Positions 4,623 to 52,039 of a stretch of 52,039 nucleotides of DNA are shown piece by piece. Location: positions 1 through 52,039 of the forward strand of contig CANLJX010000006.1 of NCBI GenBank assembly GCA_947491545.1. Direction: 5' to 3'. The notes beneath the pieces were generated by a model. It saw only the letters and a program-made list of their open reading frames with translations, was not told the origin of the DNA and searched no databases. Source of the DNA: Deltaproteobacteria bacterium (GTDB lineage Bacteria; Bdellovibrionota_C; UBA2361; OMII01). A program made the position numbers and the translations under genes. Position 1 is the first letter of the stretch. Each line of letters starts with the position of its first letter.

Positions 4623-5018
4623 CTACGCTGCTGCCTTTGTCTCTTCCTTCTCGCGTCGCACGACGTGAGTGGTCTCGATCTTGATGCGCACGTTCGGCGC
4701 AATCTCAAGAGTAACGAAACCTGCGTCTGTTCCGGCAACGCGACCAACGATCCCCGATGAGGTCACAACGGACTCCCCCTTCTTGAGCGTCTCAAGCAAG
4801 GCCTTCTGGGCCTTCGCCTTGCGGTCCTGTGGTCGGATGACCATGAAGTAAAAAACGGCGTAACAGATAACGATCAGCGGCGCGGTTTCGGAGAGCACCT
4901 GCATGAACGACTTCTGTGCTGGCACGTCGGCGCCCTGCGGAACGATGCTGTCGGCAAAAGCCTCGGCTGTGTTCACAGCAAAGGCTGCGCAAAGTGAGGA
5001 AAGGAACTTGGCTTTCAT
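4623..5018 (-). CDS. yajC: Preprotein translocase accessory subunit YajC
   Basis: YajC is a small single-span protein of the SecDF-YajC holo-translocon. The core is recognisable: membrane helix APLIVICYAVFYFMVIRPQ, the conserved RPQ immediately after it, then the cytosolic domain with KKGESVVTSSGIVGRVAG. It is longer at the N-terminus than many homologues because it carries about 40 extra residues that resemble a signal or second hydrophobic segment (MKAKFLSSLCAAFAV...). It is the first gene of yajC-secD-secF and lies 97 bp after purA. That gap holds a short CCAAAAG/CTTTTGG inverted repeat. Confidence 0.93.
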   Translation of the reverse strand: MKAKFLSSLCAAFAVNTAEAFADSIVPQGADVPAQKSFMQVLSETAPLIVICYAVFYFMVIRPQDRKAKAQKALLETLKKGESVVTSSGIVGRVAGTDAGFVTLEIAPNVRIKIETTHVVRREKEETKAAA

Positions 5019-14278: not shown

Positions 14279-14869
14279 TTAGGCTAGCGCATGGAACCGC
14301 ACGGGCATGAAAGCCTTGGGGTGATGGAAGTCGGGTTCAACCCCAGAAACTGGGCACGATGAGATGAAAACTCTCTGCGGTTTATGCGAGATGCCGGACA
14401 CGTGAACTGTTGAGCTCTCCGAGAGCTCCACCGCAAGACAAGAAAGTTCCACCCCAAGCACCACTCTCCACTGTCCCTCGCCCAACTCCACCCGAATGAC
14501 GGGCTCCCGCAGTTCCGGGATGGTGGTCTCGCGGGTCCTGTAGGAACTAAGGACAACGGTCCACCACGCACCTCCTGGACTGACATTGAACTCCTGGTAG
14601 CGCCCGGAGCTCTCCTTGATGAAGATCTCTGCAACGTCCCGTTCCCACAGCCCCTCAATGAAATCGCCACTCGAATGCTGCGGTTCGTACTCCGTGCCGC
14701 CTGACAAGGAAGCCACAAACCAGAACCGCTTGGGATCTCGCACAATCGCCCACTGCAGCGGTTGCGGAAGCGCCTGCCCGTTCCAGCCCATCGCGACTGA
14801 CTGAAACGGCAGATGATTAAGCTGTTCGAGAGAGACATGTGTAGGGGACTCAAAGATCGTAACGGTCAC
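14279..14869 (-). CDS. CBM9-like carbohydrate-binding domain protein
   Basis: The 196-aa protein fits the DOMON/CBM9-like beta-sandwich family found in uncharacterised sugar-related proteins. The pattern is LWERDVAEIFI, then YQEFNVSPGGAWW, and the C-terminal PDFHHPKAFMPVRF. There is no signal peptide, so it appears cytosolic. It overlaps the upstream glycosidase gene by 4 bp (ATGA), so the two products are probably made together and may act on the same polysaccharide. The ligand is not known. Confidence 0.7.
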   Translation of the reverse strand: MTVTIFESPTHVSLEQLNHLPFQSVAMGWNGQALPQPLQWAIVRDPKRFWFVASLSGGTEYEPQHSSGDFIEGLWERDVAEIFIKESSGRYQEFNVSPGGAWWTVVLSSYRTRETTIPELREPVIRVELGEGQWRVVLGVELSCLAVELSESSTVHVSGISHKPQRVFISSCPVSGVEPDFHHPKAFMPVRFHALA

Positions 14870-46375: not shown

Positions 46376-47548
46376 GTGGGGAAGCATTCTGCCGAGAGCC
46401 AGTCGTACGCTCTGCTCGGCGCCTCATCAGCAAAGGCTGGTATCCTAGCTGCAGCTGGCGAAGCGACTGAGAGCAGATACTTCGCGAACCCGATCGACGA
46501 TCCTTTTGGCGACCAGGAGAGCGCTTTCTTCCTGCACGCTGACGGTGCCGGCACGAAGAGCATCGTTGCCTACTTGATGTTCCGTGAATCCGGAGATGTC
46601 TCGTGGTTCAAGTCATTGGCGGTCGACAGCCTTGTCATGAACCTCGACGATGTGGCCTGCTCCGGCGGATTGTCTGGACTGGCTCTCAGCAACACCATCG
46701 CCAGAAATCGCGGCTTAATTCCAGATGAAGCGATCGCTTCGATTATCTCGGGATACCGAGAGTGTGCGGCAACGTTAGCCGCAGAGGGAGTGTCGATAAT
46801 CTTGAGCGGCGGAGAAACGGCCGACATGGGAGATCTCGTCCGCACTCTCGTCGTTGACTCGACCCTGTGCGCCCGCATCAAGCGAGAGGAGCTCGTAGAC
46901 GCCTTTCGGGTAGTGCCGGGGGACGCGATTGTAGCTTTTAGCTCGACGGGCAAGTGCCGCTACGAGAAAACTCCTAATTCTGGAATCGGAAGCAACGGTC
47001 TTACTCTGGCGCGAAACGTGCTTCTCTCAAGGTCGCACGCCGAGAAATATCCGGAGGTTCGGGATCCAGCTATCCCAGCTTCTGTTGGGTACCGCGGGCC
47101 ATTTCAGGTGACAGATCCGCTGCCTACCACCTCGATGACAGTTGGAGAGGCTCTTCTCTCTCCCACTCGGTCGTACGCTCCGCTTATTTCGAAGCTCCTG
47201 CTCCTTTTCCGAGGTCATGTACACTCGCTTGTTCACTGCACGGGTGGAGGGCAGACAAAGATCAAGCGATTCGGTCGAGGCGTGCGCTTTGTCAAGAACA
47301 ACTTATTCCCAAGTCCTCCTCTCTTCGAACAGATTCAGCGGTGTGGGGATATCCCCTGGAGCGAGATGTTCGCGGTATTCAATATGGGGCACCGTCTTGA
47401 AGCCTGTGTGCCAGCTGCGGCTACGAGTGAGATCATCGCTGTGGCCGGGGATTTTGGGATTGATGCACGGGTCGTAGGGCAGGTAACCTGTTCTTCAGGG
47501 GCGAACGAGGTTGTTCTCGAGTCGCCTTACGGCACGTTCGTGTACTAA
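46376..47548 (+). CDS. purM: Phosphoribosylformylglycinamidine cyclo-ligase, long form (AIR synthase)
   Basis: PurM closes the imidazole ring to make AIR in purine synthesis. This 390-aa version has FLHADGAGTKSIVAYLMF, DSLVMNLDDVACSGG, LSGGETADMGDLVRT, GIGSNGLTLARNVL, HCTGGGQTKIKRFG and FNMGHRLEACVP. All of these correspond to PurM blocks. Its layout (about 390 aa, the SPTRSYAPLI segment) is that of the long Bacteroidota-type AIR synthase, not the 345-aa proteobacterial one. It starts with GTG 6 bp after the cytochrome gene. The TAA stop overlaps the next ATG. Confidence 0.88.
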   Translation: MGKHSAESQSYALLGASSAKAGILAAAGEATESRYFANPIDDPFGDQESAFFLHADGAGTKSIVAYLMFRESGDVSWFKSLAVDSLVMNLDDVACSGGLSGLALSNTIARNRGLIPDEAIASIISGYRECAATLAAEGVSIILSGGETADMGDLVRTLVVDSTLCARIKREELVDAFRVVPGDAIVAFSSTGKCRYEKTPNSGIGSNGLTLARNVLLSRSHAEKYPEVRDPAIPASVGYRGPFQVTDPLPTTSMTVGEALLSPTRSYAPLISKLLLLFRGHVHSLVHCTGGGQTKIKRFGRGVRFVKNNLFPSPPLFEQIQRCGDIPWSEMFAVFNMGHRLEACVPAAATSEIIAVAGDFGIDARVVGQVTCSSGANEVVLESPYGTFVY

Positions 47549-49440
47549 TGACTGCACCCGCTTCCGACATCCAGCATTCGCTCGCTGCCTGCGCTTCGCT
47601 TGGTGAGGCTTTTTGGCGGCGCGCTCAGGCGTTTCCTGAAGAGACACTTTTGAGGTACGCCAACAGCCCGGATGCTGCTGGCACTCGTCTTTGGAAGAAA
47701 GAGTCCTACAGCTCAGCAGCTCCGAGGGTGGCTCGAATCGCTAACCTTCTTCGCGCGCTCGGTGTTGAGGCCGGGACTCCGGTCGCAATCATTAGCCAAA
47801 CTCGGCACGAGTGGATCCTGGCGGATCTCGCGATCCAGACGGTGGGCGGCATAACGGTGAGTGTATACCAGAGTCAGCTCGCTGCTGACGCAGGTTTTGT
47901 GCTCTTTGACTCAGGGGCGCGAATTGTTTTCGTCGAGAACGAGGAGCAGCTTGCAAAGGTCAACTGGCTTCGCAGCAACGACTGCCCTCTTCCAGCAACG
48001 GAGAACCATCCGGAGTCTGCGGTGCGGGTGCCGGTCGATGCCGTGGTCTCTTTCGAGCGAATACACGGCTCGCCCTCTGTGCAGTGCCTGGCCGATGTCT
48101 GGAACGATTCTTCCCTGTCAGCTGATGCGCCACCGATCCCGGCCTCGATAGGTCGTGATTCGGTTGCGTCGTACGTGTACACCTCAGGCACTACGGGTCC
48201 GCCCAAAGGTGTGGTGCAAACCCACGGCAACCACCTCGCAAATGTTGAGCAGGCCGCCAAGAGCGGTGTCTTCCCCGGCGACGGCACCCTGTTCCTGTAC
48301 CTTCCGCTCGCCCACTCTTTCGCCAGACTCATACACTACGTCGGTTGTCTCACCTCGGCCCACCTCATCCTCCCCTCCGTGGCCGACCACCGCACCTCCC
48401 GCATCGACCTCTCCTCCGTAGCGCGAGACCTCAGGGAATGTGGGGCAACCGTAGTTCCTTCAGTGCCCCGCCTCTTCGAGAAGATCTCCTCAGCGCTGCA
48501 AGCCCGCGCAGCGGGCAAGAGCCTGCAGCAACGGATATTAGGGCTCTGTGTTTCTAACGCTCAATCGACGTACGAGCGCCGGAGCGCGGGAAAACCCCTA
48601 GGGCTTCTAGAACACCTCCTATTCGAAGGGCTTCAGCCCATTCGCCGTAAGATAAGGAGAGAGCTGTTCGGAGTTAACTTTACCCATGCCATATCGGGCG
48701 GCGCGAAGCTTGATGCAGGGGTGAACAAGTTCTTCGATTCGCTGGAAATTACGATCTGCGAGGGGTACGGCTTAACTGAAACCTGTGTGGCAACCCATGT
48801 AAATCGCCCAACTCAGCGAAGGATCGGAAGCGTTGGGCCGGCATTCGAGGGCGTTGAAACAAAAATCTCCCCGGAAGACGGTGAGATAATGCTTCGAGGC
48901 CCCAACGTAACCCGCGGTTACCTCAACCGACCGAAAGCCACCGCTGATTCATGGGATGCGGATGGCTGGTTTCACACGGGCGACGTGGGGGCGGTTGATC
49001 AAGATGGATTTCTGTTTATCACCGACCGAAAGAAGGAGCTGGTGATCACGGCCGGAGGAAAGAAGATTCCACCAACAGCCGTTGAGGGTCAGTTCAAGCG
49101 GTTCTCTTTCATCTCCCACGCGCTACTCTACGGCGAGGGGCGTCCCTACTGCGTAATCCTCTTCACGCTCAACGAACCAGAGCTGCGCAGCCTCCTAACC
49201 TCCTCCGGAATCTCCGTCCCCCCAGACCACAAACTCTCTGAGATGTCGGCAGTCCGAGGGATGCTGCAGGACGCCATAAACAAAGTTAACGAAACCCTTG
49301 CAACTTACGAAAGCATCAAGGCTTTTTGCATCGCAGACGAGGACTTCACAGTCGAAAATGGGCTACTCACCCCCACCTTAAAAATGCGCCGCCGTCAAAT
49401 CACTGCCCGCCACCTCGGCCTAATCTCCTCCCTCTACTAA
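47548..49440 (+). CDS. AMP-forming long-chain acyl-CoA synthetase
   Basis: This 630-aa enzyme of the FadD15/FAA1 branch activates fatty acids as acyl-CoA through acyl-AMP. VYTSGTTGPPKGVVQTHGN is the AMP-binding P-loop. CEGYGLTETCVATHVNRP, DGWFHTGDVGAVDQDGFLFITDRKKELVITAGGKKIPP and the C-terminal NETLATYESIKAFCI are typical of long-chain members. The ATG overlaps the purM stop (TAATG), so translation is coupled. It is probably cytosolic or peripheral to the membrane. Confidence 0.93.
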   Translation: MTAPASDIQHSLAACASLGEAFWRRAQAFPEETLLRYANSPDAAGTRLWKKESYSSAAPRVARIANLLRALGVEAGTPVAIISQTRHEWILADLAIQTVGGITVSVYQSQLAADAGFVLFDSGARIVFVENEEQLAKVNWLRSNDCPLPATENHPESAVRVPVDAVVSFERIHGSPSVQCLADVWNDSSLSADAPPIPASIGRDSVASYVYTSGTTGPPKGVVQTHGNHLANVEQAAKSGVFPGDGTLFLYLPLAHSFARLIHYVGCLTSAHLILPSVADHRTSRIDLSSVARDLRECGATVVPSVPRLFEKISSALQARAAGKSLQQRILGLCVSNAQSTYERRSAGKPLGLLEHLLFEGLQPIRRKIRRELFGVNFTHAISGGAKLDAGVNKFFDSLEITICEGYGLTETCVATHVNRPTQRRIGSVGPAFEGVETKISPEDGEIMLRGPNVTRGYLNRPKATADSWDADGWFHTGDVGAVDQDGFLFITDRKKELVITAGGKKIPPTAVEGQFKRFSFISHALLYGEGRPYCVILFTLNEPELRSLLTSSGISVPPDHKLSEMSAVRGMLQDAINKVNETLATYESIKAFCIADEDFTVENGLLTPTLKMRRRQITARHLGLISSLY

Positions 49441-49459
49441 CACACTCTCAGAGAATGTG
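49441..49459. repeat. REP-like palindrome, copy 1
   Basis: CACACTCT-CAG-AGAATGTG has 8-bp arms with one mismatch. It shares the CTCT-CAG-AGAA core with the other copies around the RAYT gene and lies directly after the acyl-CoA synthetase stop codon. Confidence 0.55.
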
Positions 49460-49468
49460 AGATCCCCG

Positions 49469-49487
49469 CGAGTTCTCTGAGAATTCG
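49469..49487. repeat. REP-like palindrome, copy 2
   Basis: CGAGTTCT-CTG-AGAATTCG pairs over 8 bp (one G:T). It is 10 bp from copy 1 and in inverted core orientation (CTG versus CAG), as in BIME-type pairs. Confidence 0.7.
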
Positions 49488-49573
49488 GGAGAATGTTCGT
49501 GAATTTCATTTAAGGCTGTCGGATTAGCGATGCGTACCCGCAACTCCTCGGCCAGACCCTCGAATGAAAGAGT

Positions 49574-50557
49574 ATGAGTTATCATCCAAGAATAGAAACC
49601 GCAGATCTGACATCATTCATCACGACTCGCTGCCGCAATTCCGAGCTTTGGTTCGTGAACAACCGACCCCTTGAGAATGCGATTTTGGGGTACGTGGGGA
49701 AATTTGCCGCCCGCTACGACATTAAGCTTTACGCCTTCGCGATCGAAGGTAACCACACCCATTGCGTCGCTGACTTTCCCGGTCTGAACCGAGCCGCTTT
49801 CATGCGTGACCTAAATTCGTGTATCGCCCGCAGCGTCCGCCGCCTCGTTCCGAAGTTCCCTGGCGGTCCTCTATGGGGACGTCGCTACTCTGTTGAGCTG
49901 ATGCCCGCACCGGAGGATGTTGAAGAATACTTTTTCTATACTGTCCTTCAGCCAGTAAAGGATGGGCTAGTCCAGCAGCTCTCTGATTACCCGGGGTACA
50001 ACTGCTTTCGAGATGCGATCTGGGGGATGAAGCGAAAATTTACCGTAGTGGATTGGGCCAGGTACAACTCCGCGAAGCGGTATAATAAGTCTATTCGCTT
50101 CGATGATTACGTCCGCCATATCACCCTGAAGTATGAGCGATTGCCGGGCTATGAGAAGCTGTCGCAGGCTGCATACGCAAAAATGATGATGCGAAAGCTT
50201 GAAGAAAGGCGACAAAAAATCGTGGCAGACCGTTTGAAGGTAGGTTTATCATTTATGGGGCGCAATCGGCTTCTGACTATCGAGCCGGGCTCGCTCCCGG
50301 TCTCTACTAAGACCAGCAGCCGCTATTCGCACCGCCCCCGAATCCTCGCCGTAGATCACAAAAGACGGGCCGAATATCGAGATTGGTATTTCTCAACCCT
50401 ACAGCAATACATCGACGCGTCGCGCCGATATCGGCAGGGAGACCGCAAGGTGCGCTTTCCTGCCGGAACTTTCCTCCCCCTGCTTTTCGGTGGGTCCGAT
50501 ACTCCCGCCTCGGCTGAGACGAGACACCCCTCCAACAAGTTTCAAAACGGGCCGTAG
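49574..50557 (+). CDS. REP-associated tyrosine (Y1, IS200-like) transposase, RAYT-like
   Basis: The 327-aa protein belongs to the Y1 transposase superfamily. FAIEGNHTHCVADF carries the HUH metal motif (H61, H63), and EEYFFYTVLQPVKDGLVQQLSDYPG contains the catalytic Tyr (Y122, aligned with the Y in RYIHxNPVRAGLV). About 150 further residues at the C-terminus are helical and basic, longer than IS200 TnpA. No IS ends or target duplication are obvious; palindromes flank it instead, as for domesticated RAYTs that mobilise REP sequences in trans. Confidence 0.85.
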   Translation: MSYHPRIETADLTSFITTRCRNSELWFVNNRPLENAILGYVGKFAARYDIKLYAFAIEGNHTHCVADFPGLNRAAFMRDLNSCIARSVRRLVPKFPGGPLWGRRYSVELMPAPEDVEEYFFYTVLQPVKDGLVQQLSDYPGYNCFRDAIWGMKRKFTVVDWARYNSAKRYNKSIRFDDYVRHITLKYERLPGYEKLSQAAYAKMMMRKLEERRQKIVADRLKVGLSFMGRNRLLTIEPGSLPVSTKTSSRYSHRPRILAVDHKRRAEYRDWYFSTLQQYIDASRRYRQGDRKVRFPAGTFLPLLFGGSDTPASAETRHPSNKFQNGP

Positions 50558-50567
50558 AGAGAACTGC

Positions 50568-51341
50568 TCACCAATACTTTTCTACGTGGAGATTTCCCGG
50601 AGACTTTTTGGAGTGAACCTGGAAGCCCTGGGTCGCGAGACTAACTTCAAGCTCCTCAATCATGGCAGGATTTCCACACAGGAAAACATGATCCATTTCG
50701 GGATTCAATTTGACCGTTCCATCGTCGAAGAGCCTCTGAACCCTGCCTTTTCGACCCGACCAGGTTTCCGCCGCCCGGCTGGCGATCGGAAGATATTCCA
50801 AGCCCTGTGTGGAGGTCTCAAGTGTACGCAACTCATAAGAGTAGGCGAAGTCTTCCGGATACCTCACTCCATGAATAACAGTTACTCGACGATTTGAGCC
50901 CCATGTGCTCGACGTCCGAACCATCGACATAAACGGTGCAAGCCCGGTGCCCGTGGAAACAAGTACAAGATTTTTCCCAGGCGGAACACCATCAAGGGTG
51001 AAAGTTCCTGTCACCTTCGGCTGACAAAAGACGCGCCCTCCCTCCTTAACCGTGGCAAGTCTCGAGGTGAGCACACCCGTCGGGACCACTGCAATGTAGA
51101 ACTCTAGATAATCCCTCTGCTCCGGGGACGAGCCGATGGAATATGCTCGCTTAATTAATTTTTCTGGACCCGGAGCCTCTGGTTCTGGAGCCGCGCCCGG
51201 ATACCGGGGCGTTCCCCCTAGCATCCCTAGCGCCACATACTGCCCCGGAATGAAATTGGGAACACCATCATCAGGACGAACTCGGAGGATCATAAGCTCC
51301 GGAGTCACGTCTATTCTTCCTACCACAGTTGAGTTCAACAT
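50568..51341 (-). CDS. fpr: Ferredoxin/flavodoxin--NADP+ reductase
   Basis: This FAD enzyme moves electrons between NADPH and ferredoxin or flavodoxin. The 257-aa protein has the FAD motif RAYSIGSSPEQRDYLEFYIAVVPTGVLTSRL (R-x-Y-S), FCQPKVTGTFTLD and the NADP-binding VLVSTGTGLAPFMSMV. The conserved VFLCGNPAMIEEL precedes the Fpr C-terminus SPGNLHVEKYW. Its 3' end lies 10 bp from that of the transposase (convergent). The gene starts towards trmL across a 99-bp gap that holds a REP-like palindrome. Confidence 0.94.
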   Translation of the reverse strand: MLNSTVVGRIDVTPELMILRVRPDDGVPNFIPGQYVALGMLGGTPRYPGAAPEPEAPGPEKLIKRAYSIGSSPEQRDYLEFYIAVVPTGVLTSRLATVKEGGRVFCQPKVTGTFTLDGVPPGKNLVLVSTGTGLAPFMSMVRTSSTWGSNRRVTVIHGVRYPEDFAYSYELRTLETSTQGLEYLPIASRAAETWSGRKGRVQRLFDDGTVKLNPEMDHVFLCGNPAMIEELEVSLATQGFQVHSKKSPGNLHVEKYW

Positions 51342-51410
51342 GAGCCCAATATACCGTCCTGATTAATAAAAATGAACCCTATCGCCACAATTCTTTCTTT
51401 TATGTAAAAG

Positions 51411-51431
51411 CGCGTTCTCTCAGAGAATTCG
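51411..51431. repeat. REP-like palindrome, copy 3, next to trmL start
   Basis: CGCGTTCT-CTCAG-AGAATTCG, or tighter TTCTCT-C-AGAGAA. It ends 9 bp before the GTG of trmL, so the hairpin may sit in the ribosome-binding zone. Confidence 0.65.
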
Positions 51432-51440
51432 TGGTGTCAC

Positions 51441-51899
51441 GTGCATATAGTTTTAGTAGAGCCGCAAATACCTCAAAACACCGGGTCGATTGCCCGAACG
51501 TGCGCCGCCACCGACACCCCTCTTCACCTCATTGAGCCCATGGGTTTTGAGATCACAGAGAAGGCCGTGCGCCGTGCCGGTCTCGACTACTGGCCCTTCG
51601 TAAAACTGGCTCAGCACAAGTCGTGGGAGGATTACATCGCTCAATCGAGACCGGGGAAAATATGGCTTTTCTCGAAGTTTGGAGAGCGGCTCTATACCGA
51701 CGCGGTTTTCGGACCAACTGATGCCCTTGTCTTCGGAAGTGAAACCAAGGGACTAGGACAGGCTTTCCTGGGGCAATTCCCCGAGTCCCAAATCCTGCGA
51801 ATACCCATCGTCACTGACTACGTGCGCAGCCTCAATCTCAGCAATGCCGTCGCCATAGCTCTTTACGAGGCAAGGCGTCAGCTAACCCTCGATAGGTAA
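51441..51899 (+). CDS. trmL: tRNA (cytidine/uridine-34-2'-O)-methyltransferase TrmL
   Basis: TrmL methylates the wobble base of tRNA-Leu (CmAA / cmnm5UmAA). The 152-aa SPOUT protein has IVLVEPQIPQNTGSIARTCAAT, LIEPMGFEITEKAVRRAGLDYW, LVFGSETKGLG and RIPIVTDYVRSLNLSNAVAIALYEA, the trefoil-knot SAM-binding loops. The length and motifs are typical. It starts with GTG and shows no clear Shine-Dalgarno site; a REP-like hairpin lies immediately upstream. Confidence 0.94.
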   Translation: MHIVLVEPQIPQNTGSIARTCAATDTPLHLIEPMGFEITEKAVRRAGLDYWPFVKLAQHKSWEDYIAQSRPGKIWLFSKFGERLYTDAVFGPTDALVFGSETKGLGQAFLGQFPESQILRIPIVTDYVRSLNLSNAVAIALYEARRQLTLDR

Positions 51900-51932
51900 C
51901 CCCTCTCGTTTCGATTGCGCGCCTACCTACCA

Positions 51933-51951
51933 CGAACTCTCTGAGAACTCG
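51933..51951. repeat. REP-like palindrome, copy 4
   Basis: CGAACTCT-CTG-AGAACTCG has the family core with two mismatches in the arms. It lies 34 bp after the trmL stop, in the 140-bp tail of the window where I see no gene. Confidence 0.6.
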
Positions 51952-52028
51952 GGCTGCTGCTGGTGACCCACCACACACTATCCGCCAGAGGCACTAACAC
52001 CGCGTATGCATTGCATCTTAGTGCGAAC

Positions 52029-52039
52029 GCGAACTCTCT
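52029..52039. repeat. REP-like palindrome, copy 5 (cut by window end)
   Basis: GCGAACTCTCT is identical to the left arm of copy 4 apart from its first base, and the window ends inside it. It implies that the REP-like array continues to the right. Confidence 0.45.

Follow-up and report, generated by a model that had tools for sequence, protein, structure and literature searches.

Repetitive extragenic palindromic (REP) sequences are usually classed by their tag, GTAG or CGTC. In the described systems this tetranucleotide is located 5' of the hairpin (PMC6006769, PMC8266576), and the class 2 Y1 transposases that accompany REPs carry a Y motif described as Y---NP, with GTAG contacts reported as W94, Q95 and R104 (PMC6006769). 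Repeats other than GTAG beside Y1 genes are already known from the TIRtrons (PMC3733652) and from Y1 subclass 2.6 and class 3 (PMC6006769), and because of these precedents the locus described here is not a new kind of system. It lies in a window of 52,039 nucleotides, the entire contig C6 (CANLJX010000006.1) of a draft Deltaproteobacteria genome, G000 (3.03 Mb, 206 contigs, 84% complete), where a gene for a REP-associated tyrosine transposase (RAYT) of the Y1 type is surrounded by a family of short palindromes. We consider it highly probable that the two form a REPtron-like system, in which a resident single-copy Y1 (TnpA_REP-like) single-stranded DNA nuclease recognises the folded palindromes and has spread them through intergenic regions.

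Compared with the canonical REP/RAYT system (E. coli type, Y1 subclass 2.2), the locus shares the Y1 fold, with a catalytic Tyr that corresponds to Tyr115 of 4ER8, and, as in the canonical REPtron, a single-copy, vertically kept gene is associated with intergenic imperfect palindromes that have an internal mismatch, a conserved 5' foot and some inverted pairs. It differs in the foot, which is ACCR or ACTA instead of GT[AG]G, in a protein about twice as long with Y---QP rather than Y---NP and with His-Thr-His (HTH), and in copy number, which is in the tens and not the hundreds. In subclass 2.6 (RAYT group 5) and class 3, too, structures other than GT[AG]G flank the gene and recur in the genome; however, subclass 2.6 is described with NH[LIV]H, YIH[QN]NP and about 179 aa, and class 3 with the foot CnGA and Y----Q (PMC6006769), whereas the window system, with motifs and length compared by eye, has a protein of 327 aa with NHTH and YTVLQP, and the foot ACCR. 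Subclasses 2.1 and 2.3, compared by motifs and length, are likewise long, with a C-terminal extension; they are reported to differ in motif where GTAG is contacted and to have no flanking REP-like structures (PMC6006769), which the window gene has. The CGTC-tagged REPs are also short intergenic palindromes tagged at one end, although they are reported with the CGTC tag and without a dedicated transposase (PMC3733652), neither of which is true here. Finally, the locus is unlike an IS200/IS605 insertion sequence in that G000 holds one intact copy, syntenic in relatives, and not multiple near-identical copies.

A palindrome family recurs between genes

The consensus of the family, here called family A, is a 19-bp odd palindrome, CGARNTCTC(W)GAGANYTCG (search consensus CGARYTCTCWGAGARYTCG). 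The earlier note on this DNA had reported four palindromes near the RAYT gene, with a fifth cut at the window end, and all of these were recovered by direct reading (Table 1); the first two were rightly described as close and opposite in core orientation, being separated by a 9-bp gap (28 bp start to start) with opposite centre bases. At up to 3 mismatches the window gives five matches to the consensus against 0.30 expected, a number reached by 0 of 100 shuffles; three of the five are reported copies, and the extra two, at 14411 and 49230, have 3 mismatches each. Across G000, with up to 2 mismatches allowed, family A has 24 sites and the reversed control none. A looser oriented search revealed a sister subfamily, family B (CTACAAGGTCTC-A-GAGACCTTGTAG, consensus CTACAAGGTCTCAGAGACCTTGTAG), with about 18 copies in G000, about 10 in G006 and 2 in G011; a search of the order's 26 other genomes gave none. 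The two families together lie above the threshold of about 10 genome copies that the earlier note had named. That these are chance palindromes or an assembly artefact has next to no probability, given the excess in the window and the genome and the presence of the same family in three other congeners, even though the assembly is a draft metagenome-assembled genome (MAG) with copies close to several contig ends. The end of contig C6 inside the fifth copy is consistent with what an assembly break at a repeat would give.

The copies are overwhelmingly intergenic. This bias was measured by overlap with open reading frames (ORFs) of at least 150 aa: palindrome centres fall inside such an ORF in 9/42, 1/17, 3/11 and 2/12 cases in four genomes, whereas 73-84% of the same stretches lie inside one (binomial P 1e-3 to 2e-15). 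Mapping against intergenic regions, which had been proposed as a check, places most copies outside such ORFs.

The repeat has a polarity and a foot other than GTAG

Orientation was set by convention from the centre base (A), using 65 family-A copies from four genomes. In this orientation the right side, GAGANYTCG-YGGT, is better conserved than the left: GGT occurs on the right only in 29 copies, ACC on the left only in 5, both in 18 and neither in 13 (P 4e-5). On the centre-T strand, this corresponds to a conserved 5' foot, ACCR, followed by an imperfect hairpin with the tip TCTCTGAGA, whose stem in family A carries an internal 2-nt mismatch at positions 3-4/14-15. The foot of family B is ACTA, and folding of the family B consensus gives a 12-bp hairpin (-10.9 kcal/mol). 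The GT[AG]G tetranucleotide is not present at the 5' hairpin foot in either family, in agreement with the earlier note, which had seen no GTAG head; GT[GA]G is present on the 3' side of the hairpin. The topology is thus that of a REP with a 5' tetranucleotide, written in letters other than GT[AG]G. Arm covariation across copies did not rise above shuffled expectation, and we make no claim of compensatory change because the symmetry of the palindrome rests on fixed bases.

The suggestion that the copies are organised as bacterial interspersed mosaic elements holds in part. Inverted pairs exist, and one feet-in pair in G006 folds as a perfect 24-bp hairpin, but among A-A neighbours within 300 bp the same orientation is commoner (15, against 8 feet-in and 3 feet-out). 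Elsewhere in G000, six A-type palindromes stand in tandem on contig C99 (C99:4313-4539; L137:1314-1537), mostly 38-39 bp apart and organised as a trio that is repeated twice.

The RAYT-like gene encodes a divergent Y1 protein

The Y1 transposase gene recognised in the earlier note is real: the protein matches PF01797 (Pfam) at 27.2 bits, over the cut-off of 23. NF047646 (NCBIfam, REP-associated tyrosine transposase) is hit at 43.4 bits (E 2.9e-11), under its cut-off of 80, and the protein is related to this equivalog but outside it, as a divergent member. PDB entry 4ER8 (E. coli TnpA_REP) was matched by sequence (E 0.0017), with Tyr122 opposite Tyr115. For an AlphaFold2 model (11 homologs; pLDDT 81, pTM 0.81), the best fold match was again 4ER8 (E 1.8e-5, TM 0.71 over the target), followed by the IS608 and ISDra2 transposases. 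About 160 residues extend C-terminally beyond the stretch that matches 4ER8.

Tyr122, the predicted catalytic residue, is invariant in 23/23 homologs, most of which carry the Y motif as Y---QP. The HUH motif of the window protein is H61-T62-H63, with both His present and Thr as U; among the 23 homologs it varies as HIH, HEH and HKH, and as HIQ or YIQ in seven. In these seven (alignment A1, residues 61-63) Gln replaces the second His, one also being without the first His, and Tyr122 is kept. With regard to the reported GTAG-contact residues, the 4ER8 alignment places W101 opposite W94 and a Gly opposite Q95. Nonsynonymous divergence of the RAYT gene (pN) is 0.21-0.23, against a synonymous divergence (pS) of 0.79-0.88 at which synonymous sites are saturated; the gene is single-copy, vertically inherited and under purifying selection. 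Among named records, close homologs of the protein occur in MAGs under the labels Oligoflexia, Deltaproteobacteria, Proteobacteria or 'Bacterium'.

Repeats vary with the RAYT lineage within the genus

The order AMP-binding gene, RAYT, ferredoxin-NADP reductase-like (FNR-like) gene and trmL is common to G000, G002, G006 and G011, and in the latter three the RAYT orthologue is also flanked on both sides by a family-A palindrome in the shared gaps (the G006 gene is frameshifted in the assembly). These four genomes with this clade of the gene, RAYT-A, hold 24, 16, 12 and 11 family-A sites, whereas the eight other congeners hold 0-3, near the control; the association of RAYT-A with the palindrome, 4/4 against 0/8 genomes, has a Fisher P of 0.002. 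Four of the eight carry a different clade, RAYT-C (support 100/100), and wherever a flank is available the RAYT-C gene is flanked by repeats of the GCGCGGTNTCTGAGAGAA type. Matches of this type number 40 in G009, 16 in G003, 15 in G001 and 7 in G007, and in the RAYT-A genomes 4 in G000, 8 in G006, and 0 and 0 in the other two. The palindrome thus co-varies with the RAYT clade, as the earlier note had proposed to examine: RAYT-A goes with 11-24 A copies and RAYT-C with 7-40 copies of a different repeat. Together with the many intergenic copies, this co-variation makes a REPtron with a non-canonical REP, as first suggested there, the best reading.

Transcription-factor operators or intrinsic terminators, with the Y1 gene as a bystander, would also account for odd-centred dyad symmetry between genes, and one copy (51413) does lie in a divergent promoter region. 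This is very improbable in view of the tandem arrays, such as the six copies on C99, the copies just past stop codons, the lack of a T-run in the copies read, the arms that vary with the RAYT lineage and the flanking of RAYT on both sides in four species. Both the operator and the terminator candidates were rejected on the arrays, the missing T-run in the copies read, the lineage-dependent arms and the two-sided flanking. An Rfam search of the window returned two tRNAs only, and neither the palindromes nor the MITE-like elements searched gave a match (MITE, miniature inverted-repeat transposable element).

In clade C the repeat also stands at both ends of an element of ~270 bp at no fewer than nine loci (at least 9), with a constant spacing of 249-253 bp and AT-rich internal palindromes, and these ends are of the same kind as those that flank the clade-C RAYT gene. 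Such MITE-like elements are found at L202-L207 and L211-L213 (G009, G001, G003, G008), with the ends TTCTCTCAGAGACCGCGC and GCGCGGTCTCTGAGAGAA. The genes of more distant homologs have inverted flanks of other kinds. At L151, for instance, CGTATCWGATACG lies within 34-nt inverted flanks on both sides of the gene; its genome-wide count in L151's own genome, 6 against 2 for the control, is near the control level; around the more distant homologs L052, L053/L154, L055 and L056 a flanking palindrome was not obvious.

These observations bear on a TIRtron in the TIRYT sense (PMC3733652). On this account inverted repeats bound the Y1 gene as parts of an element that was once mobile, and the palindromes scattered through the genome are solo ends of that element or MITEs derived from it. 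Such units have been described with non-GTAG inverted repeats, some families of which are self-complementary and repeated in the genome (PMC3733652), and the inverted ends that the ~270-bp elements share with the clade-C gene, their constant spacing and the flanks of L151 fit this pattern, as do the inverted flanks of the sister clade C genes. The window gene, compared by description, is not bounded as a unit: the copies that flank it face in both directions and lie beyond neighbour genes as well, most A copies are single palindromes of the mostly solo 19-27-bp kind, and RAYT-A sits at one locus in four species despite saturated synonymous divergence. We therefore regard the TIRtron as an unlikely account of the window.

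How the proposed REPtron-like system may work, and what weighs against it

The REPtron-like reading builds on observed features, namely the repeat family with its polarity and intergenic bias, the synteny, the purifying selection, the protein fold and motifs, the co-variation with lineage and the linkage of gene and repeats; what we infer is enzyme binding, cleavage, repeat mobility and the strand read. In the proposed mechanism the enzyme would bind the hairpin where the DNA is single-stranded, such as on the lagging strand or in the course of repair, and would read the hairpin tip plus the foot. Tyr122 would then cleave and rejoin the DNA beside the foot; in this way elements could be moved singly or as inverted pairs, and so could the ~270-bp composites of the sister lineages.

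Several points weigh against this reading. The copy number, ~24 A and 18 B in an 84% draft, is low against the usual >100 of REPs. With HTH in the window protein and HIQ or YIQ in 7/23 homologs, metal-dependent cleavage cannot be taken for granted in all lineages. The RAYT-A genomes may be no more than nearest relatives, so the 4/4 against 0/8 do not represent independent events. In G008 (87% complete) there are 17 repeats of the clade-C type and no detected RAYT of that clade, which means either orphan repeats or a missing contig, and family B persists in G006, where no B-type gene was found; from these two cases it follows that a repeat may survive its cognate gene or have none. Most other genomes of the genus, some of them without a detected RAYT of this clade, have more copies of the 9-mer TCTCWGAGA than of its reverse, and for this reason the bare core is not diagnostic.

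The unusual point of the system would be a tip, TCTCWGAGA, that stays the same through families A and B and most of C as foot and arms diverge. L149, L151, L147, L057 and L058 are exceptions, and because of these and of the 9-mer excess we put the fixed tip forward as a hypothesis. More tentatively still, and with some doubt on our side, the locus could belong to a separate Y1 clade with recognition reversed, where the tip TCTC-W-GAGA is fixed, foot and arms diversify (ACCR, ACTA, GCGCGG), the HUH motif is loosened (HTH, HIQ) and one enzyme family yields both solo REPs and the ~270-bp MITE-like elements. With a foot unlike the usual tags, and with sister clades of a single genus each flanked by a repeat of their own, these RAYTs form a natural series in which to ask what part of the REP is read by the enzyme, and the series also bears on enzyme-repeat co-evolution and on the interconversion of solo REPs, REPINs and MITEs. 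REP/RAYT-like systems are hereby extended to an uncultured lineage; no REP/RAYT paper on Bdellovibrio-like bacteria was found in the open-licence literature searched.

The locus and its neighbours

Table 1. Palindrome copies, the RAYT-like gene and neighbouring genes, in window coordinates.
Feature	Position	Strand	Remarks
Family-A copy 1, CACACTCTCAGAGAATGTG	49441..49459	+	Centre A, diverged arms; sequence read directly
Family-A copy 2, CGAGTTCTCTGAGAATTCG	49469..49487	-	Centre T on +, inverted relative to copy 1; 0 mismatches
RAYT-like Y1 transposase, 327 aa	49574..50557	+	PF01797, NF047646, 4ER8 by sequence and fold
Family-A copy 3, CGTTCTCTCAGAGAATTCG	51413..51431	+	Between divergent FNR-like and trmL-like genes; TGGT next
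Family-A copy 4, CGAACTCTCTGAGAACTCG	51933..51951	-	3' of trmL-like gene; foot ACCA on centre-T (+) strand
Fifth family-A copy, left half, CGAACTCTCT	52030..52039	+	Cut by contig end; sequence read directly
AMP-binding enzyme gene, upstream neighbour	47548..49440	+	PF00501; synteny
FAD/NAD-binding oxidoreductase (FNR-like), downstream neighbour	50568..51341	-	PF00175/PF00970; synteny
SpoU/TrmL-like methyltransferase gene, downstream neighbour	51441..51899	+	PF00588; synteny

Copy 1, with 4 mismatches to the consensus, starts right behind the stop codon of the AMP-binding gene (49440), and its position is also occupied in G002 (L121:2486) and G006 (L104:1344). The gap of copy 3 likewise holds a palindrome in G002 (L121:4561), G006 (L104:3410) and G011 (L116:2094), and palindromes downstream of trmL are found in the same three genomes. 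The match at 49230-49248 lies inside the AMP-binding coding sequence, and the same gene of G006 also has one (L104:1119); this shared match probably reflects coding conservation.

Beyond the intact copy, G000 has no second close RAYT copy except a relic on contig C5, where two fragments (L132:4294-4344 and 4698-4799), corresponding to residues 141-157 and 272-305 of the window protein, are separated by decayed sequence. A family-B palindrome stands immediately before each fragment, and B copies appear to have entered the decaying gene. A second Y1 subfamily of G000 consists of four mutually similar proteins of 324-368 aa (L034 on C21, L035 on C50, L036 on C12 and L037 on C44); the full palindrome is absent near all four of their genes.

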